A stretch of DNA of 32,236 bases from Lachnospiraceae bacterium UBA7012 (GTDB taxonomy: Bacteria; Bacillota; Clostridia; Lachnospirales; Lachnospiraceae): contig DJXE01000144.1 in the NCBI GenBank assembly GCA_002449595.1, positions 16,114-48,349 on the forward strand, given 5' to 3'. Shown here one piece after another: positions 7,954 through 22,354 of this stretch. Positions within the stretch are counted from its first letter, which is position 1. Each line of letters begins with the position of its first letter. The position numbers and the translations under genes are program-made. Under the pieces are notes generated by a model that saw only the letters and a list, made by a program, of their open reading frames with translations, made no database searches and was not told where the DNA came from.

Positions 7954-8005
7954 GGGGGCGCACACGAGAAACAGCGGGGATGAAGAGCGACAGGAGAGGA
8001 CCGAA

Positions 8006-9556
8006 ATGGAACTTCTGAGTTATCGGAAATTAGAAGAGGCTGGGTACGATGGATATCTGCTGAAGGAGGCGCCGGTGAAGGTGCTGCAGTTTGGGGAAGG
8101 AAACTTCCTGCGGGCGTTTGCGGATTATTTCATTGATGTTGCGAATGAGCGGGCTGGCTTTGGTGGCAAGGTTGCGATGGTGCAGCCGGCGTCGGCGAGC
8201 ACGGGCGGCGCGGACCGCATGAATGCGCAGGACGGCCTTTACACGCTGTATCTTCGCGGGAGTGAGAACGGCCAGAAGATCGACCGGAAAAGGATCATCT
8301 CCGCAGCCAGCGGCTGCTGCAACACGCACAGGGACTGGGCGCAGATCGAGGAGATCATCTGCAGCCCGGAGCTGAAGTATATCATCAGCAATACGACGGA
8401 AGCGGGCATCGTCTATGATGCATCGTGCAAGTTGGAGGATGCGCCGCCGGCGAGCTTCCCGGCAAAGCTGACGAAGCTTCTGTATGCGCGCTGGAAGGCG
8501 GGGCTTCCGGGACTCGCAATCCTGCCTTGCGAGCTGATCGACGACAACGGCCTGGTCCTCAGGGACTGCGTGCTGCGTCACGCTGCCGACTGGAAGCTGG
8601 AAGACGCGTTCGCTGACTGGGTCGGCGGTGCGTGCATATTCTGCTCCACGCTGGTCGATCGCATTGTGCCTGGCCGCGTGCGCGACGAGGCACAGCTTGC
8701 ACAGATGGAAGAAGAAAACGGCTACCGCGACGAGCTGCTTGTTGTCGGGGAAGTTTTTGGCGTGTGGTATATCGAGGAGCTGCCGGCGGTTCAGAAGGAT
8801 GATGCGAACGCGGCGGAGCAGAGCCTGCGGGTGCTGGAGGAAGCTTTCAGCGCAGCGGGCGCAAATGTGCATTTTGTGCCGGAGGTGGTGCCGTACAAGA
8901 AGCGCAAGGTCCGGATCCTCAACGGCGCGCACACGGGATTTGTGCCCGGCGCGTATCTCGCCGGATTCAATATCGTCCGCGACTGCATGCATGACGAAGC
9001 CGTGCGCGGATACATGAACCGGATGCTCGAAGAAGAAGTTATCCCTGTTCTTCCGCTGCCGGAAGATGACTGCAAGGCGTTTGCCGCCGCGGTGCAGGAC
9101 AGGTTCGACAATCCGTTCGTCGACCACCAGCTGATCTCCATCACGCTGAATTCCACGTCCAAGTGGCGGGCGAGAAACATGCCGACCCTGCTTGAATACG
9201 TAGAAAAATATGAGAAACTGCCTCCGTGCCTGTCGATGAGCCTCGCGATGCTGATTGCGTTCTACAGCACGGATATTGTGGCGAGAGAAGATAATGCGCT
9301 CGTCCTGAGAAGACAGGTGCAGGGCGCAGCGGAGGAATACCGCGCGCAGGACGACGCACAGGTACTGGATTTCTATTATGAGCACAAAGATGCGGACGAT
9401 GCCGCTCTTGTGAACGACGTCCTTGCGAACACAGACATGTGGGGTCAGGATCTCAGACAGGTCGCGGGACTTGAAGAGACAGTGCTCGCGGATCTCGCAC
9501 TGATCCGGCAGCAGGGGACTGCGGCGGCGTTCGCGAAACTCGGCAAAGCGCAGTGA
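8006..9556 (+). CDS. uxaB: Tagaturonate reductase (altronate oxidoreductase)
   Basis: The 516-residue protein belongs to the mannitol dehydrogenase family of long-chain NAD-dependent polyol and sugar-acid dehydrogenases. QFGEGNFLRAF (residues 28-38) is the N-terminal nucleotide-binding segment of UxaB-type enzymes. The middle region with KKRKVRILNGAHTGFVPGA carries the conserved Lys, Asn and His residues of the active site. It reduces D-tagaturonate to D-altronate with NADH. The ATG at 8006 follows AGGAGAGGA; a longer in-frame reading from 7907 overlaps uxaC and is not needed. The gap to uxaC is 52 bases and contains no terminator. Fructuronate reductase (UxuB) is the closest alternative, but the length, the motif HTGFVPGAYLAG and the neighbouring altronate dehydratase favour UxaB. 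Confidence 0.93.
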   Translation: MELLSYRKLEEAGYDGYLLKEAPVKVLQFGEGNFLRAFADYFIDVANERAGFGGKVAMVQPASASTGGADRMNAQDGLYTLYLRGSENGQKIDRKRIISAASGCCNTHRDWAQIEEIICSPELKYIISNTTEAGIVYDASCKLEDAPPASFPAKLTKLLYARWKAGLPGLAILPCELIDDNGLVLRDCVLRHAADWKLEDAFADWVGGACIFCSTLVDRIVPGRVRDEAQLAQMEEENGYRDELLVVGEVFGVWYIEELPAVQKDDANAAEQSLRVLEEAFSAAGANVHFVPEVVPYKKRKVRILNGAHTGFVPGAYLAGFNIVRDCMHDEAVRGYMNRMLEEEVIPVLPLPEDDCKAFAAAVQDRFDNPFVDHQLISITLNSTSKWRARNMPTLLEYVEKYEKLPPCLSMSLAMLIAFYSTDIVAREDNALVLRRQVQGAAEEYRAQDDAQVLDFYYEHKDADDAALVNDVLANTDMWGQDLRQVAGLEETVLADLALIRQQGTAAAFAKLGKAQ

Positions 9557-9573
9557 GTTCGCCTGCGTTCGTG

Positions 9574-9626
9574 CGGTACGGCGAATTGCGGTGACTGCAG
9601 CGGCGTGCGCGGTATGGCGAATTACG
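9574..9626. repeat. Two direct 17-base repeats between uxaB and uxaA
   Basis: CGGTACGGCGAATTGCG (9574-9590) and CGGTATGGCGAATTACG (9610-9626) agree at 15 of 17 positions and start exactly 36 bases apart. They lie in the 119-base gap between uxaB and uxaA. They may be a decayed tandem duplication or paired protein-binding sites. Confidence 0.6.
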
Positions 9627-9675
9627 ATAATTTTGCCGAGAAATGGATAACCGGGAAGCACCCGGGAGGAATTCG

Positions 9676-11199
9676 ATGAATGAAAAATTGATCCGGATCA
9701 CAGAGAAGGATAACGTAGCTGTGGCAATCGCCCCTGTTGCTGAGGGTGAGACTGTCGTCGCAGGAGAGATCCGACTTCAGGCGATACAGGACATCCCGCA
9801 GGGACACAAGATTGCTCTGGCAGACATCCGTGAGGGAGAATCCGTCATCAAGTATGGGACGCCGATCGGACATGCCACTGCTGAGATCCGTGCTGGTGAG
9901 TGGGTCCACACGCACAATACGGCGACGAACCTCAGCGGCGAAGAAGAATACCGCTATGAGCCGGCAATCGATGCTTCGTGGGACGAGTGGCTGCGGAACT
10001 GGAAGAATGGGAACTCCGTGGCAGGCGAGGAGCAAGCTGTATTTTATGGTTATCGCCGCCCCGATGGCCGCGCAGCGATCAGAAATGAGATCTGGATCAT
10101 TCCGACTGTGGGTTGTGTAAATGATATTTGCAGAAAGCTCGCAGCAGAATACGTGCCTGAAAACGGAGTCGACGGCGTCTACGCCTTCGAGCACCCGTAC
10201 GGCTGCAGCCAGACGGGCGCGGACCATGCGCAGACGAGAAAGCTGCTCGCGGCACTCGCGCGGCATCCGAATGCGGGCGGCGTGCTGATCGTGAGCCTCG
10301 GCTGCGAAAACTGCACGCACGAGCAATTCACAGAAGAGCTCGGCGACTACGATCCGAACCGGGTAAAATTCCTCATCTGCCAGCAGGAGGAAGATGAGAT
10401 TGCGGCGGGGATGAAGCTTTTGCGGCAGCTTGAAGAATATGCGGCAGGCTTTCGGCGGGAGGAGATCCCGGTCAGCGAGCTGGTGGTCGGCTTCAAGTGC
10501 GGCGGGTCGGACGGCCTCTCCGGAATAACGGCGAATCCGCTTGTCGGGCGGTTTGGAGATCTTCTGATCCGGCAGGGCGGAAGCGCAGTCCTGACGGAAG
10601 TTCCGGAGATGTTCGGCGCCGAAAATATGCTGCTCCCGCGCTGCGTGAGCGAGGAGGTGTTTGAAAAGGCCGCGGGGATGCTGAACGGCTTTAAGGACTA
10701 TTTTCTTTCGCACGGGGAAGTCGTCTATGAGAATCCGAGTCCCGGCAATAAAGCCGGCGGGATCACGACGCTCGAGGACAAAAGCTGCGGCTGCGTCCAG
10801 AAGGGCGGCACTGCACCGGTCACCGACGTCATCGGCTACGGCGACGCCGTGAAGGAAAAAGGCCTCACACTCCTGTGCGGCCCCGGAAACGACCTAGTGT
10901 CCAGCACGGCGCTCGCGGCCGCAGGCGCGCACATGGTCCTCTTCACGACAGGCCGAGGCACGCCGTTCGGCGCGCCGGTTCCGACGCTGAAGATCGCGAC
11001 CAACACCGCCCTCGCCACGCGCAAAAAGAACTGGATCGACTTCAACGCCGGCGTGATCGCGGACGGCACCATCTCCGAGGAGGAGGCCACGCGGCAGCTC
11101 ATGGCGCTGGTGATCCGTACCGCATCCGGCGACGAGACCAGAAGCGAAGAAAGCGGCTACCGCGGCATCGCCGTCTGGAAGGACGGAGTGACGCTGTAA
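9676..11199 (+). CDS. uxaA: Altronate dehydratase
   Basis: The 507-residue protein joins an N-terminal SAF domain (about residues 14-95, with VHTHN at 77-81) to the C-terminal UxaA/GarD catalytic domain. Cysteine-rich motifs for the iron centre are EHPYGCSQTGAD (Cys177) and SLGCENCTHEQF (Cys210, Cys213). VGFKCGGSDGLSG and DKSCGCVQKGG follow. The enzyme dehydrates D-altronate to 2-keto-3-deoxy-D-gluconate. GGGAGGA precedes the ATG at 9676 by about six bases. It follows uxaB after 119 bases that contain two direct repeats, and precedes nagA by only 11 bases. KDG kinase and aldolase, needed for the final steps, must lie elsewhere in the genome. Galactarate dehydratase is the main alternative within this family, but the uxaC-uxaB-uxaA order settles it. 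Confidence 0.96.
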   Translation: MNEKLIRITEKDNVAVAIAPVAEGETVVAGEIRLQAIQDIPQGHKIALADIREGESVIKYGTPIGHATAEIRAGEWVHTHNTATNLSGEEEYRYEPAIDASWDEWLRNWKNGNSVAGEEQAVFYGYRRPDGRAAIRNEIWIIPTVGCVNDICRKLAAEYVPENGVDGVYAFEHPYGCSQTGADHAQTRKLLAALARHPNAGGVLIVSLGCENCTHEQFTEELGDYDPNRVKFLICQQEEDEIAAGMKLLRQLEEYAAGFRREEIPVSELVVGFKCGGSDGLSGITANPLVGRFGDLLIRQGGSAVLTEVPEMFGAENMLLPRCVSEEVFEKAAGMLNGFKDYFLSHGEVVYENPSPGNKAGGITTLEDKSCGCVQKGGTAPVTDVIGYGDAVKEKGLTLLCGPGNDLVSSTALAAAGAHMVLFTTGRGTPFGAPVPTLKIATNTALATRKKNWIDFNAGVIADGTISEEEATRQLMALVIRTASGDETRSEESGYRGIAVWKDGVTL

Positions 11200-11210
11200 G
11201 GGAAAAAGAT

Positions 11211-12341
11211 ATGCTGTTTACTGGAGCACACATCTTTCTGGGTGAAAAGGGCTTTGTCCCGGGAAACCTGGCTGTTTCCGGCGACAGGATTCGTGAGATC
11301 CTGACGGAAGGGCGGCAGGAGGAAGAGTCCGAAGATCTCGGCGGCGCATATGTGATTCCGGGACTTGTGGACATTCACACGCATGGGAATTCCGGCGCTG
11401 ACTTTTCTGACGGAAGCGCGGAAGGACTGCGCAGGATGGGGCAGTACCTCGCGCAGAACGGCGTCACGTCTTTCGCGCCGACCTCGATGACGCTGCCTTA
11501 TGATCAGTTGGAAAAGGCTTTTCAGACAGCGGAAGAATACATGAAAAACAGGCCGTCGGACGGCGCGAGGGTCGCCGGCGTGCATATGGAAGGGCCGTAC
11601 TTTTCGGAGAAGAGGAAGGGCGCGCAGAACGGCGCGTACCTGAAACTGCCGGATGTCGAAGGATTCCGGAGGCTGCAGAAAGCGTGCGGAAATGCGGTGA
11701 AGATCGTGGACGTCGCGCCGGAGCTTGCGGGTGCGGAGACGTTTATCCGCGAAGTCTCGGAATATTGCAAAGTATCTTTGGCACATACGGATGCGTCGTA
11801 TGAGGAAACGCGCAGGGCTTTTGAAGCGGGCGCGTCTCATGTGACGCATCTTTTCAATGGGATGAGGCCGCTCCATCACAGGGAGCCGGGCGTCATTCCG
11901 GCAGCAGCGGAGCGCGCGGACGTCGCGGTCGAGCTGATCTGCGACGGGATCCACGTCCACCCCGCTGTCATTCGGATGGTGTTCCGGCTGTTTCCCGGGA
12001 GGGTCTGCATCATTTCCGATGCGATGCGCGGGTGCGGCATGCCGGACGGCGAGTACGTGCTCGGCGGGCAGACGGTTATCCTGCAGGACGGGCGCGCGTG
12101 CCTTGCGGATGGGACGATTGCGGGAGGGGCGAAAAACCTTTTCCAGAATATGGTGAGCGCGATCCGATTCGGGATCCGTCCGGAGGAGGCGGTCCTCGCC
12201 GCGACGCTGACGCCTGCTCGGGAGCTTGGAATGGACGCGGAGATCGGAAGCCTTGCGCCGGGCAAAAAGGCGGACTTCCTCGTGTGCGACGAGAACTGGG
12301 ACTTGCAGAGAGTGTACCTGGACGGACGACGGATACGGTGA
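11211..12341 (+). CDS. nagA: N-acetylglucosamine-6-phosphate deacetylase
   Basis: The 376-residue protein is an amidohydrolase-superfamily deacetylase that converts GlcNAc-6-phosphate to glucosamine-6-phosphate and acetate in the cytoplasm. The metal-binding motif is VDIHTHGN (His56, His58), followed by GVHMEGPYF (Glu127), the substrate loop THLFNGMRPLHHREPG, and SDAM with the catalytic aspartate. The C-terminal LAPGKKADFLV is usual for amidohydrolases. Firmicutes NagA enzymes keep the HxH pair that is replaced in the Escherichia coli enzyme. The start at 11211 follows AAGGGAAA and lies 11 bases after uxaA, so it is almost certainly in the hexuronate operon. No nagB or GlcNAc transporter is nearby. 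That placement suggests that substrates containing both uronic acid and N-acetylhexosamine are used, but it could also reflect chance operon growth. Confidence 0.94.
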   Translation: MLFTGAHIFLGEKGFVPGNLAVSGDRIREILTEGRQEEESEDLGGAYVIPGLVDIHTHGNSGADFSDGSAEGLRRMGQYLAQNGVTSFAPTSMTLPYDQLEKAFQTAEEYMKNRPSDGARVAGVHMEGPYFSEKRKGAQNGAYLKLPDVEGFRRLQKACGNAVKIVDVAPELAGAETFIREVSEYCKVSLAHTDASYEETRRAFEAGASHVTHLFNGMRPLHHREPGVIPAAAERADVAVELICDGIHVHPAVIRMVFRLFPGRVCIISDAMRGCGMPDGEYVLGGQTVILQDGRACLADGTIAGGAKNLFQNMVSAIRFGIRPEEAVLAATLTPARELGMDAEIGSLAPGKKADFLVCDENWDLQRVYLDGRRIR

Positions 12342-12470
12342 GTGCAGCGGGCCGAAGCTTTTCTTGCGAAACGTCTGATGCGATTGCTGATGCAGGCCCG
12401 AATGTGAGGCGGGAAGAGTTAACTGCATAAAACGAATCCCCCCCGGGGGCTTCTGACGGGCTCATGTCTG

Positions 12471-12479
12471 TGGTATTTT
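12471..12479 (+). promoter_or_regulatory. Possible extended -10 promoter before the DUF3842 gene
   Basis: TGG followed by TATTTT fits an extended -10 (TGnTATAAT type) 36 bases before the start codon. The -35 position (TTCTGA) is poor. The preceding 130 bases after nagA hold only a GC palindrome (CCCCCGGGGG, about 12430-12440) without a T run, so no terminator for the nagA operon is evident. Confidence 0.25.
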
Positions 12480-12514
12480 TTCATTGTGCTACAGTGAAAG
12501 TAAGGGGAAGGCTT

Positions 12515-12925
12515 ATGCGGATCCTGGTAGTAGATGCACAGGGAGGCGGTGTCGGCAGACAGCTTGTCCTGAAGATCAGGGAGAAGCTCCCGGACGCCGT
12601 GATCATGGCAGTCGGCACGAACACTGTCGCGTCGTCCGCCATGCTCAAAGCCGGGGCGGACTCGGCGGCAACCGGCGAGAATGCGGTCGTGGTAGGCTGC
12701 CGCAAGGCGGACGTCATCGTCGGGCCGGTCGGCATCGTGATCACGGACGCAATGGATGGAGAGATCACTTCTGTCATGGCGGAAGCGGTAGCCCGTTCGG
12801 ATGCGAAAAGGATCCTGATCCCTTTTTATCACTGCGATACATTTATCGCCGGAGTCACCAACAGAGGAATGGGTGCTCTCATCGCGGATGCAGTCCGCGA
12901 ACTGACGGATCCTTCCACGGATTAA
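12515..12925 (+). CDS. DUF3842 family protein
   Basis: The 136-residue product begins MRILVVDAQGGGVGRQLV, a beta strand running into a glycine-rich loop like that of Rossmann-type nucleotide-binding folds. It then alternates strands and helices through AVGTNTVASSAML, ADVIVGPVGIVI and the C-terminal segment ILIPFYHCDTFIAGV. This matches DUF3842, a family of unknown function that is common in Clostridia. The ATG at 12515 follows AAGGGGAAGG; a longer in-frame reading from 12464 lacks a site. The protein is soluble and cytoplasmic. It is followed by a leader with an intrinsic terminator and then the ABC importer operon. Whether it belongs with that operon is open: the shared strand and close spacing favour a link, while the terminator allows separate expression. 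Confidence 0.8.
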   Translation: MRILVVDAQGGGVGRQLVLKIREKLPDAVIMAVGTNTVASSAMLKAGADSAATGENAVVVGCRKADVIVGPVGIVITDAMDGEITSVMAEAVARSDAKRILIPFYHCDTFIAGVTNRGMGALIADAVRELTDPSTD

Positions 12926-12930
12926 AACGT

Positions 12931-12947
12931 TGCAGCAGGAAGCTGCA
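12931..12947 (+). promoter_or_regulatory. Hairpin at the start of the importer leader
   Basis: TGCAGC-AGGAA-GCTGCA is a perfect six-pair hairpin six bases after the DUF3842 stop codon. No T run follows, so it is not a terminator. It may be the first element of a structured leader that ends in the terminator at 13022-13064. Confidence 0.35.
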
Positions 12948-13021
12948 TCGGCGGCACAGAAGTGACCGGATCACCGGGAAGATCAGCGGCGTAAACGAAT
13001 TTTGAATCATAACGGTATGTC

Positions 13022-13064
13022 AGGAAGGCATGCGGTCTCCAGAAGGGGACGGTGCCTTCTTTTT
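13022..13064 (+). terminator. Intrinsic terminator or attenuator before the ABC importer operon
   Basis: GAAGGCA (13024-13030) pairs with TGCCTTC (13053-13059). Inside it, GTCTCC pairs with GGGGAC around an AGAA loop, with a small internal loop between the two helices. A run of five T residues (13060-13064) follows. This is a convincing Rho-independent terminator 44 bases before the binding-protein start codon. I find no good promoter between it and that gene, so read-through from upstream may be required, as in attenuators and riboswitches. It may equally just end the DUF3842 transcript. Confidence 0.75.
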
Positions 13065-13107
13065 GCGCGTAAGTGAAACATATTTAGACGGGAGGAACTT
13101 AAGACAG

Positions 13108-14724
13108 ATGAAAAAGAAACTGATTGCACTGATGACAGCCGCGATGCTGGTAATGGGAATGGCCGGATGCGCGGCTCCCGCGGCAGGAGGCACGGCAGCT
13201 TCCGGGACGCCGTCCGCGGCCGCAGAACAGAAGGAAGAGGCTGCGGCGGAGGAACCCGCAGCGGAAGAGACGGCACAGCAGCAGGAAACAGAAGGAGAAA
13301 AGATCCTGCGCACCGCGGCATCTTTCGCCTATCCGAGCCTGGATGTGCATAAAGAGTATTACGGCTGGTACACCTCCATTTATGGCATTTCGGAAGCGCT
13401 TTTCAAGCTGAATGAGAACTCGGCGGCGGAGCCCTGCCTCGCGGAGGACGCGGTGCCGGACGGCACAACATGGACCGTCACACTGAAGGACGGGGTCGGA
13501 TTCTCTAACGGGACGCCTCTGACGGCGGAGATGGTGGTCCGGAACCTCGAGCGCGCGGCGGAAGTCAACGAGCGGTTCGCATTCCTTGCGGACTTCGGCT
13601 ACGAGACACCGGATGAGAAGACGGTCGTCATTACGACGCCCGAGGTCTACCCGACGCTGAAGAATGATCTGGCGAGCCCGGAACTCGGTATGATCGATCT
13701 CGACAATACTGAGGATTACGACAATGATCCGATCTGCACCGGTCCTTTTGTGCTGAAAAGCTTCATTCCCGAGGGCGACGTGGAAGTCTCCCGCAATGAG
13801 AATTACTGGGGCGGCAGCGTAAAACTTGACGGGGCCATCTTCTATTACATGCAGGAGGACGACCCGAAGCTGATGGCGATGCAGAGCGGGGAGATCGACT
13901 GTTATAACAGCGTCTCTTCGGCGGCGCTTGAGATCTATCAGTCCGATCCCGATACATATAATGTCGTTCAGATCCCCGGCGCGCGGCTGCAGTTCTACAT
14001 CCTGAACGAGAACACGCTCGATGACGCTGTCCGTGAGGCGATCAACCTGACGGTGGACAAGGACAAGATCGCGGAGTATCTCTCCGGCACGGTGTCTCCT
14101 GCGGTCGGCCCGTTCTCGACAGAGGCGGCCTACGGCCAGGTTACGGTTCCCGCGGTCGACACGAAAAAGGCGGTCGAACTCCTGGAAGCGGACGGCTATG
14201 TGAAGGGAAGCGACGGGATCTATGAGAAGGACGGCGAGAAGCTGTCGATCAGCATCTGCTACTACGCGGCGCGGTCTCTCGATACGCTGGCGGTCCTGAT
14301 CCAGGAACAGCTCCGGGATATCGGCATCGACTCTACGCTGCGCGTGGAAGAGGATCCGGATTCGACTTATATCGCGAATGCCGACTTCGACCTTGCGCTC
14401 TACTGCATGATCGCCGACAAGTCGGGTGATCCGCTTTATTTCATCGATTCGACCCTTGCGGACGGCTCCTACTACAACGTGGCCGGCTTTGAGGATGCGC
14501 ACTGCCAGGAACTGATCGAACAGCTCCGCTATGAAGTGGATACGGACAAGCGGGCGCAGCTGGCAAACGAGATCGTGCAGATCGCGATCGACGACAACGC
14601 GTTCGGCTATGTCGGGCTGTTCAACAACACGACAGTGCTCCGGCCGGGCGTCAGCGGCTTCGCCGAGTATGTACCTTTCGACTTCTACGGTGTGGACGCG
14701 GAGACGGATATGCCCGCAAAATAA
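13108..14724 (+). CDS. ABC importer substrate-binding lipoprotein (nickel/oligopeptide family)
   Basis: The 538-residue protein has a lipoprotein signal ending MGMAGC, with the lipidated cysteine at residue 21. An Ala/Glu/Gln-rich linker runs to about residue 65. The mature domain is a family 5 extracellular solute-binding protein: GISEALFKLNE, LAEDAVPDGTTWTVTLKDGV, then ICTGPFVLKSF and RNENYWGG. This family binds peptides, nickel complexes, metallophores, opines or glycans. The linked permeases and ATPases are NikBCDE-like, but nickel is not proven, because I cannot align the metal-site residues reliably. A GGGAGGA lies about 12 bases before the ATG at 13108. It is the first of seven genes separated by at most 16 bases or overlapping. 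It should sit tethered outside the membrane and deliver ligand to the two permeases downstream. Confidence 0.92.
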   Translation: MKKKLIALMTAAMLVMGMAGCAAPAAGGTAASGTPSAAAEQKEEAAAEEPAAEETAQQQETEGEKILRTAASFAYPSLDVHKEYYGWYTSIYGISEALFKLNENSAAEPCLAEDAVPDGTTWTVTLKDGVGFSNGTPLTAEMVVRNLERAAEVNERFAFLADFGYETPDEKTVVITTPEVYPTLKNDLASPELGMIDLDNTEDYDNDPICTGPFVLKSFIPEGDVEVSRNENYWGGSVKLDGAIFYYMQEDDPKLMAMQSGEIDCYNSVSSAALEIYQSDPDTYNVVQIPGARLQFYILNENTLDDAVREAINLTVDKDKIAEYLSGTVSPAVGPFSTEAAYGQVTVPAVDTKKAVELLEADGYVKGSDGIYEKDGEKLSISICYYAARSLDTLAVLIQEQLRDIGIDSTLRVEEDPDSTYIANADFDLALYCMIADKSGDPLYFIDSTLADGSYYNVAGFEDAHCQELIEQLRYEVDTDKRAQLANEIVQIAIDDNAFGYVGLFNNTTVLRPGVSGFAEYVPFDFYGVDAETDMPAK

Positions 14725-14730
14725 ACTGAC

Positions 14731-15687
14731 ATGAAAAGATCTGCTCCCCTGTTGCTCCGTCGCGCGGTCAAACGCGCGGCGGAGCTTATCATCATACTGA
14801 TCATACTGAGTTTCCTGGTGTTTGCCCTGATGTATGCGGCCCCGGGAGATCCCGCCGAGAAGCGGCTGACCTCGCAGGGAATCGTCGTCACGAAGGAGAT
14901 CCTGCAGGCGGAGCGCGAGAGGCTGGGCCTCCTGCGCCCGTTTTTTGTCCGGTACGGAGAATGGCTCGGCAGTATTGCGCGCGGGGACTTCGGCGTGTCG
15001 TTCAAGGACGACATGCCGGTTGCGGGCAAGCTGGCAGCCGGCCTGAAGAATACACTGATCCTGTCCTCCTTAAGTCTCCTGATCTCCCTTGCCGCGGCAC
15101 TGCCGCTCGGAATCGTCTCCGCGGTCCGGCAGGACGGCCCCGCGGACCATCTGATCAGGGTGGTCTCTTTTGTCGGCAACTCGCTGCCGAATTTCCTGAT
15201 CTCGGTGCTGCTGATGTATTTCTTCTGCATCCGGCTGAAACTCCTGCCCGTGATCGCTTCCGGGAATCTGCGCGGACTGCTTCTGCCCGCCCTGTCGCTC
15301 GCGATTCCGCTGGCCAGCCGGTTCGTGCGGCAGATCCGCTCGGAACTGATCGGGGAACTGCAGGAAGAGTATGTCACGGGACTCCGGGCCAGGGGCGTCC
15401 GGGAGCGGTATGTCATCTGGAAAAACGTCCTGTACAACAGCCTCGGGCATATCGTGACCATGGCGGCGCTGGCGGTCGGTACTCTGATGGGAGGAAGCGT
15501 CGTCATCGAGACCGTATTCCGCTGGCCGGGCATCGGCAAACTGGTCATGGATTCCATTAACGCGCGTGACTATCCGGTCATCATGGGCTTCGTGCTCATC
15601 ATGGGGACGATCTACATGGGCGTGAACCTTCTCGCGGATGTGATCGCCGGCATTCTGGATCCGCGCATCCTGAACACACAGAAATGA
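14731..15687 (+). CDS. ABC importer permease, NikB/DppB type
   Basis: The 318-residue integral membrane protein has the N-terminal helix and the segment SFLVFALMYAAPGDPAE that mark the DppB/NikB class, where a conserved GDP follows the first helix. About six membrane helices are visible. The cytoplasmic EAA-type loop reads VTGLRARGVRERYVIWKNVL near residues 214-233 and contacts the ATPase subunits. The start is six bases after the stop of the binding-protein gene, with no strong ribosome binding site, which suggests translational coupling. Its last codons overlap the next permease by four bases (ATGA). It should form a heterodimeric channel with the product of the next gene. Confidence 0.93.
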   Translation: MKRSAPLLLRRAVKRAAELIIILIILSFLVFALMYAAPGDPAEKRLTSQGIVVTKEILQAERERLGLLRPFFVRYGEWLGSIARGDFGVSFKDDMPVAGKLAAGLKNTLILSSLSLLISLAAALPLGIVSAVRQDGPADHLIRVVSFVGNSLPNFLISVLLMYFFCIRLKLLPVIASGNLRGLLLPALSLAIPLASRFVRQIRSELIGELQEEYVTGLRARGVRERYVIWKNVLYNSLGHIVTMAALAVGTLMGGSVVIETVFRWPGIGKLVMDSINARDYPVIMGFVLIMGTIYMGVNLLADVIAGILDPRILNTQK

Positions 15688-16526
15688 AGATAAAAAGATC
15701 CGTTTCCGATCAGAGAAAAAAACAGAGATACAGGATCATTGCCGCTTCGGCAGCGGCAGTGATTCTTATCGCCGTTGCGCTCCTCGCGCCAATGCTCTCG
15801 CCGAATGATCCCTATCGCACAAACAGTGCGATCATCCGCCACGCACCGTGCGCGGCGTACCCGTTCGGGACGGATAATCTCGGCAGGTGCGTCCTGTCCC
15901 GTGTCCTGATGGGAGCGCGGACGACGATTGCCGTGACCTTTTTCCTGGTGGCGGTGTCGTTTGTCATCGGCACGGCGATCGGGCTCCTGTGCGGGTATTA
16001 CGGAGGCAGGATCGATGACCTGCTCATGCGGGTCGCCGACATCATGCTTGCATTCCCGCAGATGGTCATTGCGATCGCTGTGGCCGGAATCCTCGGCGGA
16101 GGGATCGCCGGCGCGATGACCGCACTCGGGATCACCATGTGGACCGGATTTGCAAGGCTTTCAAGGAGCCACGCGAGGACGCTCCGCGGGATGCCATACA
16201 TCCAGGCGGCCCTTCTCTCCGGGAAGAGCGGCCCTTATATTATGCTGCACCACATCCTGCCAAATGTACTGGAGCCGCTGCTGACAAATGCGCTGACCCA
16301 GATCGGAACGACAATGATCGGCATCTCGGGACTTTCCTTCCTGGGACTCGGCATCGTTCCTCCGCAGGCGGAGTGGGGATCCATGATCAGCGAGTCGAGG
16401 GCATATATCCAGATCGCCCCGTGGGCTGTCCTTTTCCCGGCGCTCGCCACGATCCTGACGATCCTCGTTTTCAATTATCTCGGAGACGCCGTCATGGAAT
16501 ACCGGATGGCGGAGCGGCACACATAA
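15684..16526 (+). CDS. ABC importer permease, NikC/DppC type
   Basis: The 280-residue membrane protein carries features of the DppC/NikC class: an N-terminal helix, LLAPMLSPNDPY, then FGTDNLGRCVLSRVLMGART, which is the family's characteristic region before the transmembrane core. About six helices follow. The coupling loop is QAALLSGKSGPYIMLHHILP, and GLSFLGLGIVPPQAEWG near the C-terminus is strongly conserved in this class. Its ATG overlaps the stop of the first permease by four bases. It pairs with that permease to form the membrane pore of the importer. Confidence 0.93.
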   Translation: MKIKRSVSDQRKKQRYRIIAASAAAVILIAVALLAPMLSPNDPYRTNSAIIRHAPCAAYPFGTDNLGRCVLSRVLMGARTTIAVTFFLVAVSFVIGTAIGLLCGYYGGRIDDLLMRVADIMLAFPQMVIAIAVAGILGGGIAGAMTALGITMWTGFARLSRSHARTLRGMPYIQAALLSGKSGPYIMLHHILPNVLEPLLTNALTQIGTTMIGISGLSFLGLGIVPPQAEWGSMISESRAYIQIAPWAVLFPALATILTILVFNYLGDAVMEYRMAERHT

Positions 16527-16542
16527 GGAGCGGGAGACTGCC

Positions 16543-17355
16543 ATGGCGAAAGAACTGCTGAGTATTGAACATCTGTCAGCTTCCTATGGGGAGAAGGACG
16601 TCCTCACGGACATTTCGCTGTCGGTGAAGGCAGGGCAGATCATATGCATCGTCGGAGAGAGCGGAAGCGGGAAATCAACACTGCTGAAGGCGGTCCACGG
16701 TATGGACCGCGTCCGCGTGACCGGCGGCAGCATCCGGGCCTTTGGCAGCCCGGTCTCGGCGATGACCGATGAGCAGAGGAGGAGCCTTCTGGGAGGGGAG
16801 ATCGGACTGATTCCCCAGAATCCCGCGGGTTCATTCAACCCGATCCGTCCTTTTGAGGCGCAGCTGCGCGAGACGATGCAAAGCCACGGGAGGCAGTTTG
16901 ATCCTGCGGAGACCGCCCGCGCCTTCGAAGCGGTCGGACTCGCGGATGCCAGGGGACTTCTGCGGCTGCGGCCTTATGAACTGAGCGGCGGTATGAACCA
17001 GCGCGTCGCCATCGCTGCGGCAATGCTCCTGAAACCCCGGCTTCTCCTGTGCGATGAGGTGACGAGCGCCCTGGACGTGACGACCGCCGGCAAAGTGATC
17101 CGGGAACTGGAACAGATGAACCGGGAACTTGGCACTGCGATCCTCATGGTGACGCATCATCTCGGAATCGCCCGCAGAATGGCGGAGAAGATAGGGATCA
17201 TGAAGGACGGCAGGATGATCGAACTGGAGGATGCGGACTGGATCCTGAATGCACCGGTGCAGGAGTACACCAGACAGCTGCTGCGGGATGTCCCGAAACT
17301 GGCCGGACGGGAACGGAGCGGAGAAGAATCTGCCGGAGGCCTTGATGACAGATAA
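16543..17355 (+). CDS. ABC importer ATPase, NikD/DppD type
   Basis: The 270-residue cytoplasmic ATPase has a Walker A motif GESGSGKST at residues 38-46, the ABC signature LSGGMNQR starting at residue 147, and Walker B LLLCDEVTSALD starting at residue 167, with the catalytic Glu172. A switch histidine is seen in MVTHHLGIAR. A Q-loop is present in LIPQNPAGSFNP. It lacks the long C-terminal zinc-finger-like extension of some oligopeptide ATPases, in line with nickel-type ATPases of about 250-270 residues. It begins 16 bases after the second permease and overlaps the next ATPase gene by 11 bases. The two ATPases should form a heterodimer driving import. Confidence 0.93.
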   Translation: MAKELLSIEHLSASYGEKDVLTDISLSVKAGQIICIVGESGSGKSTLLKAVHGMDRVRVTGGSIRAFGSPVSAMTDEQRRSLLGGEIGLIPQNPAGSFNPIRPFEAQLRETMQSHGRQFDPAETARAFEAVGLADARGLLRLRPYELSGGMNQRVAIAAAMLLKPRLLLCDEVTSALDVTTAGKVIRELEQMNRELGTAILMVTHHLGIARRMAEKIGIMKDGRMIELEDADWILNAPVQEYTRQLLRDVPKLAGRERSGEESAGGLDDR

Positions 17356-18124
17356 AAAGACGGAAGAAGATATGGTCATTCTGGAAGGGACCAATCTGAA
17401 CAAGACATACAGAAGCGCCGGCAGGACCGTTACGCCGCTTCGGGAGATCAGCTTTCAGCTGCACCGGGGAGAAGTGCTCGGGATCGTCGGGGAGAGCGGC
17501 AGCGGCAAGAGTACGCTCCTGCGGGTGGCCTGCGGCCTGGAACGGCCGGAAAGCGGGCGGGTCCTTGCAGGGGAGAGAGATCTCACAGGGGCCGGACCGT
17601 CGGCTGCCGGGAAATACATGCAGATGATCTTCCAGGACGCAGGTGCGTCGTTCAATCCGCGGCACACGATGCGGTGGTCCCTGGAAGAGGCGATCCCTGC
17701 CGGCGCAGACCGCGAACAGGCGAAGCAGCAGATGCGCAGCCTTCTGCGGGAGACCGGCATGTCGGATGACCTTCTGGACCGGCATCCATCGGCCCTGTCC
17801 GGAGGGCAGTGCCAGCGGATGTCCATCGTGCGCGCCCTGCTCTCCGGAGCGCAGATCCTGCTGTGCGACGAGATCACGAGCGCGCTGGATGTGACCTCGC
17901 AGGCCCAGGTGATCCGGCTGCTCCGGGAACTGAGAGAGAACAGGCACCTCTCGATCCTGTTTGTCAGCCATGATCTCGCGCTGGTCAGCATGCTGTGCGA
18001 CCGTGTAATGGTGATGAAGGAAGGCGCCTGCGTGGAAGAAGGAGAGACACAGAAACTGATTCGCGAGCCGGTTCACGCCTACACGAAGGAACTGCTGGGC
18101 GCGGCGGAATCATTTGCGGTGTAA
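17345..18124 (+). CDS. ABC importer ATPase, NikE/DppF type
   Basis: The 259-residue ATPase starts at the ATG at 17345, preceded by GGAGG inside the end of the previous gene; a longer in-frame reading from 17249 is an overlap artefact. Walker A is GESGSGKST (residues 49-57), the signature is LSGGQCQRMSIVRALL, and Walker B is ILLCDEITSALD. A switch histidine lies in FVSHDLALV. The C-terminal HAYTKELLGAA is usual for DppF/NikE proteins. It completes the five-part importer. The methyltransferase gene starts 15 bases later with a good ribosome binding site, so the operon continues. Confidence 0.93.
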   Translation: MTDKKTEEDMVILEGTNLNKTYRSAGRTVTPLREISFQLHRGEVLGIVGESGSGKSTLLRVACGLERPESGRVLAGERDLTGAGPSAAGKYMQMIFQDAGASFNPRHTMRWSLEEAIPAGADREQAKQQMRSLLRETGMSDDLLDRHPSALSGGQCQRMSIVRALLSGAQILLCDEITSALDVTSQAQVIRLLRELRENRHLSILFVSHDLALVSMLCDRVMVMKEGACVEEGETQKLIREPVHAYTKELLGAAESFAV

Positions 18125-18139
18125 AGGACGGAGGAAACG

Positions 18140-18937
18140 ATGAGCGATACGGCAGTGACGACCAGGTGGAAGAGCATCGAGGAGGAGAACCGGGCATACT
18201 GGACAAACCGGGCCCCGTCGTACACGGGGATCATCCGGGCGGAACTTGACGACGGCCATCTCCGGATGTGGGGCGGCGTCGTCCGGAAGGAACTGAAGGA
18301 GCATTTCGGGGGAAACAAAACCCTGGACATACTGGAGGTCGGAACCGGACCGGGGTTCCTGTCGATCCTGCTCGCAGGGATGGGACATCGCGTCACCGGC
18401 GTGGATTACACACCGGACATGCTCGGGGAGGCGAAGGAGAACGCCCGCCGGTACGGCGCGGAGGTGGACCTCAGGCTCATGAATGCGGAGGCGCTGGAGT
18501 TCGGGGACAAAAGCTTTGACCTTGTCATCTCGAGGAACCTGACCTGGAATCTGCCCCACCCCGACCGCGCATATCGCGAGTGGGAGAGAGTGCTGAGGCC
18601 GGGCGGTCTCATTCTTGTGTTTGACGCCAACTATTACCGGTTCCTGTTTGATGAAAAGGCTCTGGCCGCGTACGAAAACGACCGCAGGATGACCGCCCGG
18701 GCGGGAGAGGACGATATCTACCTCTGTACCGACACGGAGGCGATGGAGGCGATCGCGAGGCAGCTGCCATTCTCCCGGATCGACCGGCCGGAATGGGATA
18801 CCCGCTTCCTTACCGGGCTGGGAATGACTGCCAGTACGGATGAGGATGTGTGGAGACAGGTGTGGGACCGCAACGAGCAGATCAACCAGGCCTCCGTGCC
18901 GATGTTCCTGGTCAGGGCGGGGAAACCGCAGTCATGA
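18140..18937 (+). CDS. Class I SAM-dependent methyltransferase
   Basis: The 265-residue protein has a Rossmann-type methyltransferase core. Motif I is LEVGTGPGF (residues 65-73), the ribose-binding acid is expected at Asp89 in TGVDYTPDML, and NAEALEF and FDLVISRNLTWNLPHP follow as motifs II and III, then LRPGGLILVFDANYY. This resembles the Methyltransf_11/25 group acting on small molecules. The N-terminal 50 residues and the C-terminal region after about residue 175 should shape the substrate pocket. The substrate is unknown. GGAGGAAACG precedes the ATG, and the stop overlaps the MATE gene by four bases. Its place between a nickel/peptide-type importer and an exporter suggests that it modifies the transported compound or makes a chelator, which is inference. 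It is not a recognisable DNA, rRNA or protein methyltransferase. Confidence 0.88.
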   Translation: MSDTAVTTRWKSIEEENRAYWTNRAPSYTGIIRAELDDGHLRMWGGVVRKELKEHFGGNKTLDILEVGTGPGFLSILLAGMGHRVTGVDYTPDMLGEAKENARRYGAEVDLRLMNAEALEFGDKSFDLVISRNLTWNLPHPDRAYREWERVLRPGGLILVFDANYYRFLFDEKALAAYENDRRMTARAGEDDIYLCTDTEAMEAIARQLPFSRIDRPEWDTRFLTGLGMTASTDEDVWRQVWDRNEQINQASVPMFLVRAGKPQS

Positions 18938-20349
18938 TCGACCTGACGGAGGGACCGATCCTTAAAAAGACGTTTCTGTTCGCCATTCCTTTTCTGCTGA
19001 GCAGCCTGGTCCAGCAGCTTTACAGCACGGTCGATCTCATCTTCGCGGGGCGGTTCCTCGGAACGGCCGCCGCGGCGGCGATCGGTTCCGGGAGCATTCT
19101 GCTTACGCTCGTTCTTGGCTTTTTTACCGGCACGGGAGTCGGCGCCGGCGTACTGGCGGGACAGGCGTTCGGCCGGGGAGACAAAGCCTCGGTTCACAGG
19201 CTCATCCGGACTTCCGCCCGGATCACGATCCTCGCCGGGACAGTCCTGACAGCAGTGGGCATAGGAGCCATGTCCCGGCTTGTCGTCCTGATCCGCGTGC
19301 CCGCGGAGATACGCCCGGAGTCCGCCTTGTATCTCCGTATCTGTTTCCTGAGCATGATCCCGATCGCCGGGTACAATCTCGGCGCAGGAATTCTGAGGGC
19401 TTCCGGAGACTCCCGCACTCCCGTGCGGTACCAGCTGGCCGGAGGTCTCATCAACGTCGCCTGCAATTATCTGCTGATCTGTGTCCTGCGTCTGGGCATA
19501 GCAGGAGCTGCGGCGGCGACGGTCCTGTCGCAGTCATCCGCCATGCTCCTTGTATGGAGAGCGATCCTCACCCGATTCTCCCTGCCGGATCCAGGACGGG
19601 AGAGCGATGTCCCTGCCGGGCGGATCCGGCCGGCGAAGCGCCGGATGCAGGTGTTTCCTGCAGGATTCGGCCTTCCGGATGCGGAGACTGCCCGGAGCAT
19701 TCTGAAGATCGGGATACCGGCGGGACTGCAGGCTTCTGTGATCACGTTTTCCAATCTTCTGGTCCAGTCACAGATCAACCGTCTCGGTGCGGTTTCGATC
19801 GCGGCGTTCACCGCATATTTCAAGGCTGAGAACTTCATCTATTACCCGATCATGGCGGTAGGGCAGGCGGCCGCGGTCTATTTTGCCCAGAACGAAGGAG
19901 CCGGGAAGAGAGAGCGGATCCGCCGGGGATGCGGCCTCATCCTCAGTGCCGGAGCGGCGTCTGCCGCCGTGATCGCAGCGGTCATGATCCTTTTCAGCAC
20001 GGAGATCAGCGGGGTGTTTCTCGCAGGCAGTCCCGCCGCCATGGTCTGTGCATCCATGATCCACGCCGCATGGCCTTTCTATTTTCTCTATGTCTTCCTT
20101 GAAGTGCTCGGCGCCCTGCTCCGCAGCAAAGGAGACGCGGTCGCCCCGATGGCTATTTCGCTCCTGAACCTCTGCGCGTTCAGGCTGATTCTGCTGAGTG
20201 TCATCATGCAGCGGGCGCCGGCGGCGGAAAAAGTGGTAATGATCTATCCGGTGACCTGGTTCACGGCGACCATGTGCTATATTGTCGTGTGTGCTGCGAA
20301 ATTCGGATCCCGCGGATGTGACAACGGGGCGGCGCGTGGTAGAATCTGA
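18934..20349 (+). CDS. MATE family efflux transporter
   Basis: The 471-residue protein has about twelve predicted membrane helices in two related halves. The N-terminus GPILKKTFLFAIPFLLSSLV followed by QQLYSTVDLIFAGRFLG is the conserved start of MATE (multidrug and toxin extrusion) exporters, which use sodium or proton gradients. The ATG at 18934 overlaps the methyltransferase stop (ATGA), so the two genes are translationally coupled; an upstream in-frame reading from 18850 lies inside the methyltransferase. In this operon it may export the methylated product or a chelator rather than drugs, but MATE substrates cannot be read from sequence. A loose hairpin (about 20359-20374) lies after it, but its T run is eight bases away, so no clear terminator is called. 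Confidence 0.93.
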   Translation: MIDLTEGPILKKTFLFAIPFLLSSLVQQLYSTVDLIFAGRFLGTAAAAAIGSGSILLTLVLGFFTGTGVGAGVLAGQAFGRGDKASVHRLIRTSARITILAGTVLTAVGIGAMSRLVVLIRVPAEIRPESALYLRICFLSMIPIAGYNLGAGILRASGDSRTPVRYQLAGGLINVACNYLLICVLRLGIAGAAAATVLSQSSAMLLVWRAILTRFSLPDPGRESDVPAGRIRPAKRRMQVFPAGFGLPDAETARSILKIGIPAGLQASVITFSNLLVQSQINRLGAVSIAAFTAYFKAENFIYYPIMAVGQAAAVYFAQNEGAGKRERIRRGCGLILSAGAASAAVIAAVMILFSTEISGVFLAGSPAAMVCASMIHAAWPFYFLYVFLEVLGALLRSKGDAVAPMAISLLNLCAFRLILLSVIMQRAPAAEKVVMIYPVTWFTATMCYIVVCAAKFGSRGCDNGAARGRI

Positions 20350-20424
20350 GAAAAGGCATCTGCTCCGAAGGGCAGGGCAGGATTTTTCTGCGTGACAGCA
20401 GAGTACTTTGAAAGGATGGCAGCT

Positions 20425-21450
20425 ATGGGAAGAAGAGCACTTATCGTCGGCGGGACCGGAACGATCAGCATGGCGATCACGAAGAAGCTGGTGAAGGATG
20501 GCTGGGAAGTTTATCTTTTGAACCGGGGGAACAGGAGCAGTGAGCTGCCCGAGGACGTGAAGGTCATTCAGGCGGACGTGAATGACGAGGCGGACGTTCT
20601 TACGAAGCTCGGGGATCTGACGTTTGATACGGTCAGTGATTTTACGATTTTTACGCTGGCGCATGCGGAGCGGGATTACAGGCTCTTTAATGGGAGGACG
20701 AAGCAGTTCCTTTACACGAGTTCGGCGTCGGCGTATCACAAGCCGGCGGCGAGCTACATTCTCACGGAGGGGACGACGCTGGCGAATCCGTACTGGGAGT
20801 ACTCCAGGAACAAGATCATTTGCGAGGAGTTTTACATGCGGAAGTATCGTGAGGAGGGGTTCCCGATCACGATCATCCGGCCAAGCCACACGTATGACGA
20901 GCGGAGCATTCCGGTCGGCGTGCATGGGAAGAACGGCTCCTGGCAGATCATCAAGCGCATGCTGGAGGGCAAGCCGGTCATCATTCAGGGCGATGGCACG
21001 TCTCTTTGGACGCTGACGTTTAATACGGACTTTGCAATCGGCTACACGGGGCTCATGGGCAACCGCCACGCGATCGGCGAGGCGTTCCAGATCACCTGCG
21101 ACGAGACGCTCACATGGAACCAGATCTATCAGACGATTGCGGATGCGCTCGGCGTCGAGCTGCACGCGTACCACGTCGCGTCGGACTTCCTGTCGGAAGT
21201 CGGGAAGCAGTATGACTTCTGGGGATCGCTCGTCGGTGACAAGTCGAGCTCGGCGGTGTTTGACAATTCGAAGCTGAAGAGGCTGGTGCCGGAGTTTACG
21301 ACGCATGTTCCTTTCCATACAGGGGCGAAGATCGTTGTCGAGTACGTGCTTTCGCATCCGGAGCGGCAGAAGGATGATCCGGAGTTTGATGCGTGGTGCG
21401 ACCGCGTGATCGCTGCGCAGGAGAAGGCGAAGGCGGAAGTGTTGGGGTGA
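20425..21450 (+). CDS. Extended SDR family NAD-dependent epimerase/dehydratase
   Basis: The 341-residue protein is a nucleotide-binding short-chain dehydrogenase of the extended type. It has the GGTGTIS dinucleotide motif at residues 9-15, TSS at 98-100, and the catalytic YSRNK at 126-130. A substrate domain holds IIRPSHTYDERSIP and the late WNQIYQTIADALG segment common in CSP41-like and UDP-sugar epimerase-like proteins. Its substrate is not known. Of the in-frame ATG codons, that at 20425 is best placed, about nine bases after AAAGGA; one at 20415 is too close to that site. It is followed after 16 bases by an EamA transporter, so the two probably share a transcript. Use of NAD or NADP cannot be decided here. 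Confidence 0.88.
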   Translation: MGRRALIVGGTGTISMAITKKLVKDGWEVYLLNRGNRSSELPEDVKVIQADVNDEADVLTKLGDLTFDTVSDFTIFTLAHAERDYRLFNGRTKQFLYTSSASAYHKPAASYILTEGTTLANPYWEYSRNKIICEEFYMRKYREEGFPITIIRPSHTYDERSIPVGVHGKNGSWQIIKRMLEGKPVIIQGDGTSLWTLTFNTDFAIGYTGLMGNRHAIGEAFQITCDETLTWNQIYQTIADALGVELHAYHVASDFLSEVGKQYDFWGSLVGDKSSSAVFDNSKLKRLVPEFTTHVPFHTGAKIVVEYVLSHPERQKDDPEFDAWCDRVIAAQEKAKAEVLG

Positions 21451-21466
21451 TGCGGGCAACTGGAAA

Positions 21467-22354
21467 ATGAAAGCAAAGCACCTGATGGGCTACGCGCTGG
21501 TACTGGCCGGCGCGGTGATGTGGGGGACGATCCCGCTTTTCACAAGATATTTGTACGGAACGGGCCTGGCGCCGCTCGACGTGGCGTCGGTCCGCAGCTA
21601 TCTGTCCGCGGTGCTCGCATTCCTGCTGCTGATCGCATTCGGCGACCTGAAAAACGTCCGCCGCCGCGACATCCCGTTTTACATCATCTACAGCATGCTC
21701 GCGATGAGCGGCACCTACATCTCCTACGCGAATTCGGTGAAGCTTCTGCCGACCGCCATGGCCTCAGTGCTTCTGTACACAGCGCCGGTGTTCGTTAACG
21801 TGCTGGACAGAATCATCTATCACATCCCCTTCACCGGCGAAAAAATCATCGCCCTCATCATGACGATCGCAGGCAGCGCGCTCGTGGTGCGCATCTACGA
21901 CCCGGAGAGCCTGAAAGTCAACGCCGCCGGCATCGCAGTCGGCATACTCGCCGGCTTCTGCTACAGCCTCACGACCGTCATCGGAACAAAAGCCAAGGAG
22001 AAAAACAGCGGCCGCTGCAACGGCCTCCTCATCCTCGCGCTGAGCTTCATCCTCTTTCTGCCGATGCGCTCCCCGGTGATCCTGGCGCGCCTGACCGGAA
22101 AGCAGCTGCTCTACGCGGCCGGCCTCGCCCTGATCTCGACGATCATTCCCTACGTGCTCTACCTCTGCGGCCTGTCCTGCGGGATCGACGGCGGCAGCGC
22201 CAGCATCGCGGCAACGGTGGAACTTGTCGCGGCGACATTATTCGGCGTGATCGCGTTCGGCGACAGAGTAGGACTGCTGCAAATTCTGGGTATGGCGATC
22301 GTCTTCCTGGGAGTTGCGTGGCCCGTAGTAGCGAAAAGGTTCAGTGACCAGTGA
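21467..22354 (+). CDS. EamA/DMT-superfamily transporter
   Basis: The 295-residue membrane protein shows about ten membrane helices as two EamA repeats (about residues 8-142 and 152-290). Typical features are the start LVLAGAVMWGTIPLFTRYL, ISYANSVKLLPTAMASVLLY in the first half, and SIAATVELVAATLFGVIAFG in the second. Members export or import amino acids, nucleotide-sugars or drugs; the substrate here is unknown. The ribosome binding site is weak (AACTGGAAA), and the gene lies 16 bases after the SDR gene, consistent with coupling. Its stop codon directly abuts the stop of the converging downstream gene, leaving no intergenic base for a terminator. Confidence 0.93.
   Translation: MKAKHLMGYALVLAGAVMWGTIPLFTRYLYGTGLAPLDVASVRSYLSAVLAFLLLIAFGDLKNVRRRDIPFYIIYSMLAMSGTYISYANSVKLLPTAMASVLLYTAPVFVNVLDRIIYHIPFTGEKIIALIMTIAGSALVVRIYDPESLKVNAAGIAVGILAGFCYSLTTVIGTKAKEKNSGRCNGLLILALSFILFLPMRSPVILARLTGKQLLYAAGLALISTIIPYVLYLCGLSCGIDGGSASIAATVELVAATLFGVIAFGDRVGLLQILGMAIVFLGVAWPVVAKRFSDQ

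Follow-up and report, generated by a model that had tools for sequence, protein, structure and literature searches.

The stretch of DNA analysed here (the window) comprises 32,236 nucleotides of Lachnospiraceae bacterium UBA7012, bases 16114-48349 of contig C50, and belongs to an assembly of 1.91 Mb (G000) that is 63% complete. It carries seven consecutive genes for a predicted nickel-type ATP-binding cassette (ABC) importer, a class I S-adenosylmethionine (SAM)-dependent methyltransferase, designated MT-I, and a MATE-family transporter. An initial annotation, made from the sequence alone, had placed seven genes at these positions with intergenic gaps of 6, -4, 16, -11, 15 and -4 bases, and both positions and gaps were confirmed, the exact starts being those of that annotation. 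All seven genes translate, and each gave the expected Pfam family, in gene order SBP_bac_5, BPD_transp_1 (twice), ABC_tran (twice), Methyltransf_11 and MatE. The genes of the operon are as follows.

13108-14724, + strand: nickel-type solute-binding lipoprotein, NikA/Opp5A-like (Pfam, NCBIfam-type models, sequence and fold matches)
14731-15687, + strand: ABC permease, NikB/Opp2B-like (Pfam; Opp2B 342.5 bits, cut-off 350)
15684-16526, + strand: ABC permease, NikC/Opp2C-like (Pfam; Opp2C 268.7 bits, cut-off 300)
16543-17355, + strand: ABC ATPase, NikD-like (Pfam and curated models)
17345-18124, + strand: ABC ATPase, NikE/DppF-like (Pfam and curated models)
18140-18937, + strand: class I SAM-dependent methyltransferase MT-I, the conserved partner of the importer (Pfam, fold, gene neighbourhood)
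18934-20349, + strand: MATE-family transporter, sporadic, possible ligand exporter (TIGR00797 176.9 bits, above the cut-off of 147.4)

Conservation of the importer and its methyltransferase

Orthologs, defined by at least 48% identity, were searched in 99 genomes including that of the window. A close ortholog of MT-I was found in 10 genus genomes besides the window's own, and in all 10 a Nik/Opp-type importer was present in the MT-I cluster, in varying arrangements of which some were divergent. Gene order was identical at 99-100% identity in G042 (locus L034), while in G005 (L031) it was kept at 56-79% identity with the MATE gene missing. A second set consisted of the best 80 of 397 loci in named GTDB genomes, mainly of Lachnospiraceae and Oscillospiraceae, with Sutterella wadsworthensis also represented; among the named carriers were Flavonifractor plautii ATCC 29863 and Sutterella wadsworthensis DSM 14016. 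Because this set contains near-duplicates, and some of its loci come from the same genomes as the genus set, counts over the 80 are counts of loci and not of independent origins.

An importer lay within the flank of MT-I in 56 of the 80 loci, and in 25 of the 32 with both flanks of at least 5 kb. A second methyltransferase, MT-II, was found near MT-I in 53. Of the 24 loci without a nearby importer, 18 (from 17 genomes) were followed up and 6 were left out. In 15 of these 17 split genomes a match to the binding protein at E<=1e-120 was located elsewhere, the remaining two giving 4e-81 and 1e-68, and in 10 MT-II stood beside the separate match; the background was 1-3 binding-protein matches at E<=1e-60 per 2.0-3.9 Mb. 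Even where they are split, then, the parts tend to be kept within one genome. At the level of the order, MT-I was detected at E<=1e-60 in 16 of 295 genomes.

An acylase gene of the AstE/AspA type accompanied MT-I or MT-II in 20 of the 80 loci. In L219 and L220 (genomes G329 and G233) MT-I, an AstE/AspA-type domain and MT-II form a single protein of 813 amino acids (Pfam on L219). Among the nearest acylases of solved structure is N-acetyl-L-2,4-diaminobutyrate deacetylase, and the HxxE and DLH motifs were invariant across the aligned set. A search of 11 genus genomes for PF04952, a model of a different region of the protein, gave 0 matches; G020 carries a PF24827-type acylase gene by similarity. 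We are highly confident that the methyltransferase is an integral part of the nickel-importer system.

The initial annotation had asked whether both the methyltransferase and the MATE protein co-occur with orthologous importers, and this was borne out for the methyltransferase (10 of 10 genus genomes, 56 of 80 loci) and not for the MATE protein as a general component. The latter was adjacent to the system in the window and in the near-identical G042; a MATE-family match of any kind occurred in 6 of the 80 loci, some of these being distant or only 21-32% alike, and the window's own type was present at E<=1e-70 in 3 of the 295 order genomes, the window's included. The system of L093 neighbours a 43% MATE relative, which has an operator of its own and a DUF4198 gene after it.

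MT-I combines a Methyltransf_11-type domain with a class I SAM methyltransferase fold (Pfam and structure comparison), and by these it is predicted to be a methyltransferase, the fold alone not separating methyl from aminocarboxypropyl transfer. The nicotianamine synthase (NAS) family was absent from its 7 Pfam matches at E<=0.001 and, like CntL-like enzymes, from the 50 fold matches listed; an identity as NAS or a CntL-like enzyme was rejected, leaving room for a distant fold relation. In agreement with the initial annotation, Pfam analysis of 30 window open reading frames (ORFs) matched neither a NAS nor an opine dehydrogenase. The opine dehydrogenase family PF10100 was found in 0 of 21 genomes, with the control genomes likewise at 0.

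The importer is predicted to be of the nickel type from the nearest sequence and fold relatives of its binding protein. The top sequence matches among solved structures were 3t66 and SaNikA, both nickel binders, and the top matches of the predicted fold were S. aureus 3rqt and 4xkr. The grouping with dipeptide binders that the initial annotation had named as a refuting outcome was not obtained, and a structure comparison placed the predicted fold nearest SaNikA, with scores of 35.5 for E. coli NikA and 34.1 for CntA. Against the CntA-type model the binding protein reached 101.4 of 800 bits.

The predicted operator, its candidate regulator and the RNA leader

Two features had been overlooked in the initial annotation, namely an operator-preceded DUF3842 gene upstream and a terminator-bearing RNA leader directly before the operon.

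12436-12452, + strand: predicted operator ATCCCCCCCGGGGGCTT, upstream of the DUF3842 gene and the importer operon (C4-N4-G4 pattern)
12451-12479, + strand: predicted promoter, TTCTGA, 17 nt, TATTTT (from the sequence itself)
12515-12925, + strand: DUF3842 protein, possible regulon member (Pfam PF12953; likely start 12515)
13015-13065, + strand: RNA leader, hairpin GUAUGUC-AGGAA-GGCAUGC overlapping an intrinsic-terminator stem with a U-run (fold z-score, covariance models)

The sequence WHCCCCNNNNGGGGYTT has a single exact match in the 1.91-Mb assembly, at 12436-12452, where the operator abuts a weak -35 and TATTTT provides a weak -10. A DUF3842 gene occupies the equivalent place in G005, again preceded by the operator as in G000, and another lies near methyltransferase and LarC genes in L046; the domain was named in none of the open-access papers searched.

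The 80 loci were searched with the pattern [AT][ACT]CCCCN4GGGG[CT]T[TG], the first wording of the motif, CCNCCNGGNGG, having been replaced by C4-N4-G4. This gave 97 distinct places, and each was assigned to whichever gene of the searched set came first on the same strand in the next 450 bp. The next gene was MT-II at 27 places, MT-I at 23, the acylase at 14 and PermB at 13, with none at 14; the remaining places preceded a FecB-like gene (2, one of them a weak, 27% match), the solute-binding protein gene (2), a MATE gene (1) and another methyltransferase gene (1). A backward control pattern gave 0. MT-I genes were where the operator first came to notice, which makes the 23 places before them partly circular evidence; the places before MT-II, acylase, permease and CbiM genes are free of this circularity. 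An operator place was present in 57 of the 80 loci, in 44 of the 56 that include importer genes and in 14 of the 15 that have a CsoR-family match. A TANNNT hexamer followed the -35 at 17 nt in 75 of 106 distinct operator contexts and at 16-18 nt in 94, whereas shuffled downstream sequence gave TANNNT at 17 nt in a mean of 1.9 contexts and a maximum of 6 (200 shuffles).

Across 61 genus genomes, the window's own included, 56 operator places were found, of which 32 lie directly before a gene of the system: CbiM in 19 cases (some of these genes identified from the sequence start alone), PermB, MT-I or acylase in 9, the FecB-like gene and a further methyltransferase of G025 in 2, and DUF3842 in 2. 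In L198 of G025 two copies stand back to back, at 1498 and 1534; on one side is a FecB-like/FecCD importer and on the other a different class I methyltransferase with an FmdE-like gene after it (FecCD named by Pfam, the others by eye).

NikR was rejected as the regulator, the NikR_C family PF08753 being found in 0 of 61 relatives' genomes compared with 5 of 14 control genomes; NikR is present in fewer than half of the organisms with NikABCDE, according to PMC2667541. CsoR-family matches occurred in 15 of the 80 loci, and also beside CbiM genes or operator places in several genus genomes. A core pattern that left positions -32, +25 and +29 free of any His or Cys requirement retrieved 22 distinct CsoR-family proteins of this type, and all of them carry His, Cys, His and Cys at -32, 0, +25 and +29. 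This spacing (32, 25, 4) is that of His21, Cys53, His78 and Cys82, given as the InrS ligands in PMC7055735. Two of the 22, L209 and L212, were not beside nickel genes in the stretch examined. In a second CsoR type from the same genomes, all 24 matched proteins have Arg at -32 (33 loci, from which 7 without a pattern match were left out and 2 further matches proved to be the nickel-type proteins of G000 and G005). The window's genome encodes one of each type, L209 (the His type) and L179. For the former the best solved relatives were InrS (5fmn, 77.1 bits) and, level with it, the putative cytosolic protein 6ahx (76.8), with copper CsoRs at 45 bits or below. CsoR-family regulators with His-rich N-terminal tails were seen near CbiM genes or alone in L196, L201, L206, L209, L212 and L214. 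An InrS-like CsoR-family protein is the likely reader of the C4-N4-G4 operator; G/C-tract operators are described for the CsoR family in PMC3902906. Because the site lies directly upstream of the -35, it would fit an activator.

The RNA leader, 51 nt between DUF3842 and the binding-protein gene, lies in a region that folds better than 200 of 200 shuffles (z -3.6). Some bases of its hairpin also belong to the terminator stem, so that only one of the two could form at a time. A first covariance model, R1, was trained on four copies (the window; L031, 16790-16840; L088, 1779-1830; L118, 4808-4862). At E<=0.0022 it located copies before MT-II (L046, 8143-8193; L229, 6471-6526; L060, 592-649), before a FecB-like gene (L046, 11074-11124) and before LarC (L070, 14127-14179); of the weaker matches, one lay before LarB (L123, E 0.022) and another at an unrelated site (L221, E 0.011). 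A second model, R2, retrained on nine copies, added one outside its training set before CbiM in G017 (L154, 2146-2197, E 4e-5), along with two chance-like matches at E 0.038. The matches in L221, L240 and L105 were judged to be chance. Over nine sequences both-side changes affected 4 of 7 pairs of the first hairpin, which shuffles reached in 3 of 500 cases in an alignment whose fitting to the model biases towards the model; in the L154 copy an otherwise invariant G-C pair is A-U (read by eye). Against Rfam, the NiCo riboswitch included, neither window 12400-13130 nor the L118 leader had a match at E values up to 1, and the L088 leader had two sub-threshold, unrelated ones. The leader, which precedes genes for nickel importers, methyltransferases, LarC and CbiM, is a candidate attenuator.

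Elsewhere in the window, SDR-family and EamA-family genes (20392-22354) follow the MATE gene 42 and 16 bases behind, and no link of either to the importer system was found. Upstream, at 6271-12341, are UxaC glucuronate isomerase, mannitol-dehydrogenase-like, altronate/galactarate dehydratase-like and amidohydrolase genes (Pfam), which look like a hexuronate pathway.

The metal, the ligand and rival explanations

LarB, LarC or LarE genes were present in 6 of the 80 loci, and the representatives scanned in L070, L086, L094 and L123 were above the NCBIfam cut-offs. In L229 MT-II, MT-I and LarC stand in a row, and L224, L226, L227 and L230 each encode a CobW/HypB/UreG-type GTPase downstream of the system (Pfam on L224 only). 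The window's own genome has larC, larB and larE together, each above cut-off. At L046 8143-15078 methyltransferases surround a LarC piece and a FecB/FecCD/ATPase-like importer, so that the same enzymes accompany another importer class, and in L086 (7991-10848) and L094 (8574-11276) a second ABC importer, ThiY-like by eye, is next to MT-I and Lar genes.

The lines of inference converge on nickel, which is very likely the metal concerned. The same architecture could serve the uptake of cobalt for B12, a possibility raised by the operator before genes of CbiM, a cobalt-named family. The NikA-like binding protein, the Lar and HypB-like neighbours and the InrS ligand set speak against it, as does a cobalamin riboswitch count of 0 at gathering threshold in 15 CbiM or motif loci, and we regard cobalt as improbable.

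The operon probably serves nickel acquisition, with MT-I making or modifying a nickel ligand that the nickel-type ABC system imports. That the methyltransferase synthesises or modifies the ligand is, taken separately, slightly favoured. The linkage, the protein fusion, the common upstream sequence signatures and the protein families are direct observations. When nickel is low, the InrS-like protein at the operator would turn the promoter on, and the RNA leader would let transcription continue into the operon. The lipoprotein and the four ABC subunits would then import nickel complexed with a small organic ligand, as homology and the SaNikA complexes suggest, and MT-I would make or modify that ligand, giving a nickel complex that the operon's own importer can recognise. 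Relatives have a larger enzyme set of MT-I, MT-II and an AstE/AspA-type acylase, sometimes fused, in which the acylase might unmask a precursor or open the ligand. The MATE protein may export the ligand in this lineage, although we consider this rather doubtful. The nickel would probably feed enzymes using the Lar-type nickel-pincer nucleotide, for which larB, larC and larE are present. More broadly, and tentatively, MT-I, MT-II and the acylase could constitute an undescribed, non-opine nickelophore pathway that builds a small nickel chelator, with interchangeable NikABCDE-like or FecB/FecCD-like importers, an InrS-type activator and, in some members, the RNA leader, which is also found before CbiM and LarC and is perhaps nickel-responsive.

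The initial annotation had proposed acquisition of a metal or small molecule with a methylated ligand, or else a detoxification cycle. The first proposal is supported as regards the metal, nickel, and the integral methyltransferase, with methylation of the ligand still a matter we infer. The detoxification cycle was rejected because, in relatives, the common operator lies before importers of three kinds. It might be argued instead that the importer takes up nickel while the methyltransferases act inside the cell, after uptake, on the imported ligand or on a nickel cofactor precursor, no exported nickelophore being made. Several loci in which methyltransferases adjoin LarC, LarB and LarE, and L046, where they lie around LarC and the FecB/FecCD-like importer, would agree with such a role, as would acylases able to open an imported ligand and the lack of a conserved exporter. 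Lar genes, however, are near only 6 of the 80 loci compared with importers near 56, and the methyltransferases accompany importers of different classes, for which a common extracellular ligand is the better fit. The intracellular role appears unlikely. Least credible is an ordinary peptide or opine importer with the methyltransferase as a housekeeping neighbour. SBP_bac_5 transporters often carry peptides, the binding protein falls under the NikA equivalog cut-off and peptide binders are close behind in fold, but the linkage of MT-I in many genera, the split genomes that keep both halves, the common operator and the nickel binders as top matches leave this reading with hardly any probability.

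Several observations weigh against nickel acquisition with a ligand made or modified by MT-I. The binding protein scored 283.9 of 600 bits against Opp5A_nikA and 141.5 of 393 against TIGR02294, the NikA equivalogs. Below its top sequence rows nickel and peptide binders mix (9pl3, named peptide-binding, 86 bits; CntA 79; DppE 66), and by fold DppA (35.8) ties E. coli NikA and ranks above CntA. The operator pattern alone is weak in whole genomes, since the 56 places in the genus genomes compare with 42 for the backward control (summed); it occurred in only 4 of 12 further order-level loci and was absent from L223 and L225, where a CsoR gene heads the operon. Operator control of the window's importer is uncertain, since the operator is separated from the importer genes by a terminator-like hairpin. 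InrS-type proteins are known mainly as regulators that release efflux genes, and for activation of import by such a protein there is one published case (PMC7055735). MT-II, the acylase and the MATE gene are each absent from many members, and in G000 (63% complete) and G005 only MT-I was seen. LarC is present in 10 of 11 methyltransferase genomes, a figure drawn from methyltransferase genomes alone, and CbiM, with its cobalt name, is also behind the operator.

Relation to known systems

Nickel is needed by many gut anaerobes, and little is known about bacterial nickel chelators that do not belong to the opine family. Open-access full texts, judged by titles and the beginnings of abstracts, yielded no paper on this gene set, and 0 such texts combined methyltransferase, nickel ABC transporter, Lachnospiraceae and operon. 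The pairing of a methyltransferase with a nickel importer, recurrent in many related anaerobes under the same predicted nickel switch, suggests a so far undescribed route by which a nickel-carrying molecule would be made or modified. If this is correct, the enzyme set, the regulon signature and the named carriers would allow a direct search for a nickel chelator, the InrS exception, in which a CsoR-family protein favours nickel import, would extend to a broad set of Clostridia, and a candidate RNA element for nickel genes is offered.

The operon resembles NikABCDE and S. aureus NikA (Opp5A), its nearest fold, in having a five-subunit SBP_bac_5 ABC importer. It differs in including a SAM-dependent methyltransferase, to which relatives often add a second one and an acylase, in a binding protein under the NikA equivalog cut-offs, and in that NikR was not found in 61 relatives' genomes. 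The candidate regulator shares with InrS, the CsoR/RcnR-family nickel sensor of Synechocystis, the four predicted ligand residues and their spacing, a G/C-tract operator, a setting in which NikR was not found and a published link to the nik operon. In contrast to InrS, many members here have a long His-rich N-terminal tail, and the site lies directly upstream of the -35 of importer or enzyme genes.

The staphylopine (cnt) system likewise couples a Nik/Opp-type importer to SAM-using enzymes and, as in the window, to an exporter. Its exporter, CntE, is of the MFS type, whereas a MATE protein is encoded here; MT-I has no NAS-family match, no opine dehydrogenase was found among the scanned window ORFs, and the enzymes are methyltransferases and an AstE/AspA acylase. 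That acylase shares with known AstE/AspA enzymes, such as N-acetyl-diaminobutyrate deacetylase, the PF24827 catalytic domain, the conserved HxxE and the later DLH motif. Unlike them, it belongs to a predicted nickel regulon, where it either has two methyltransferase genes as neighbours or forms the middle domain of a fusion with both.

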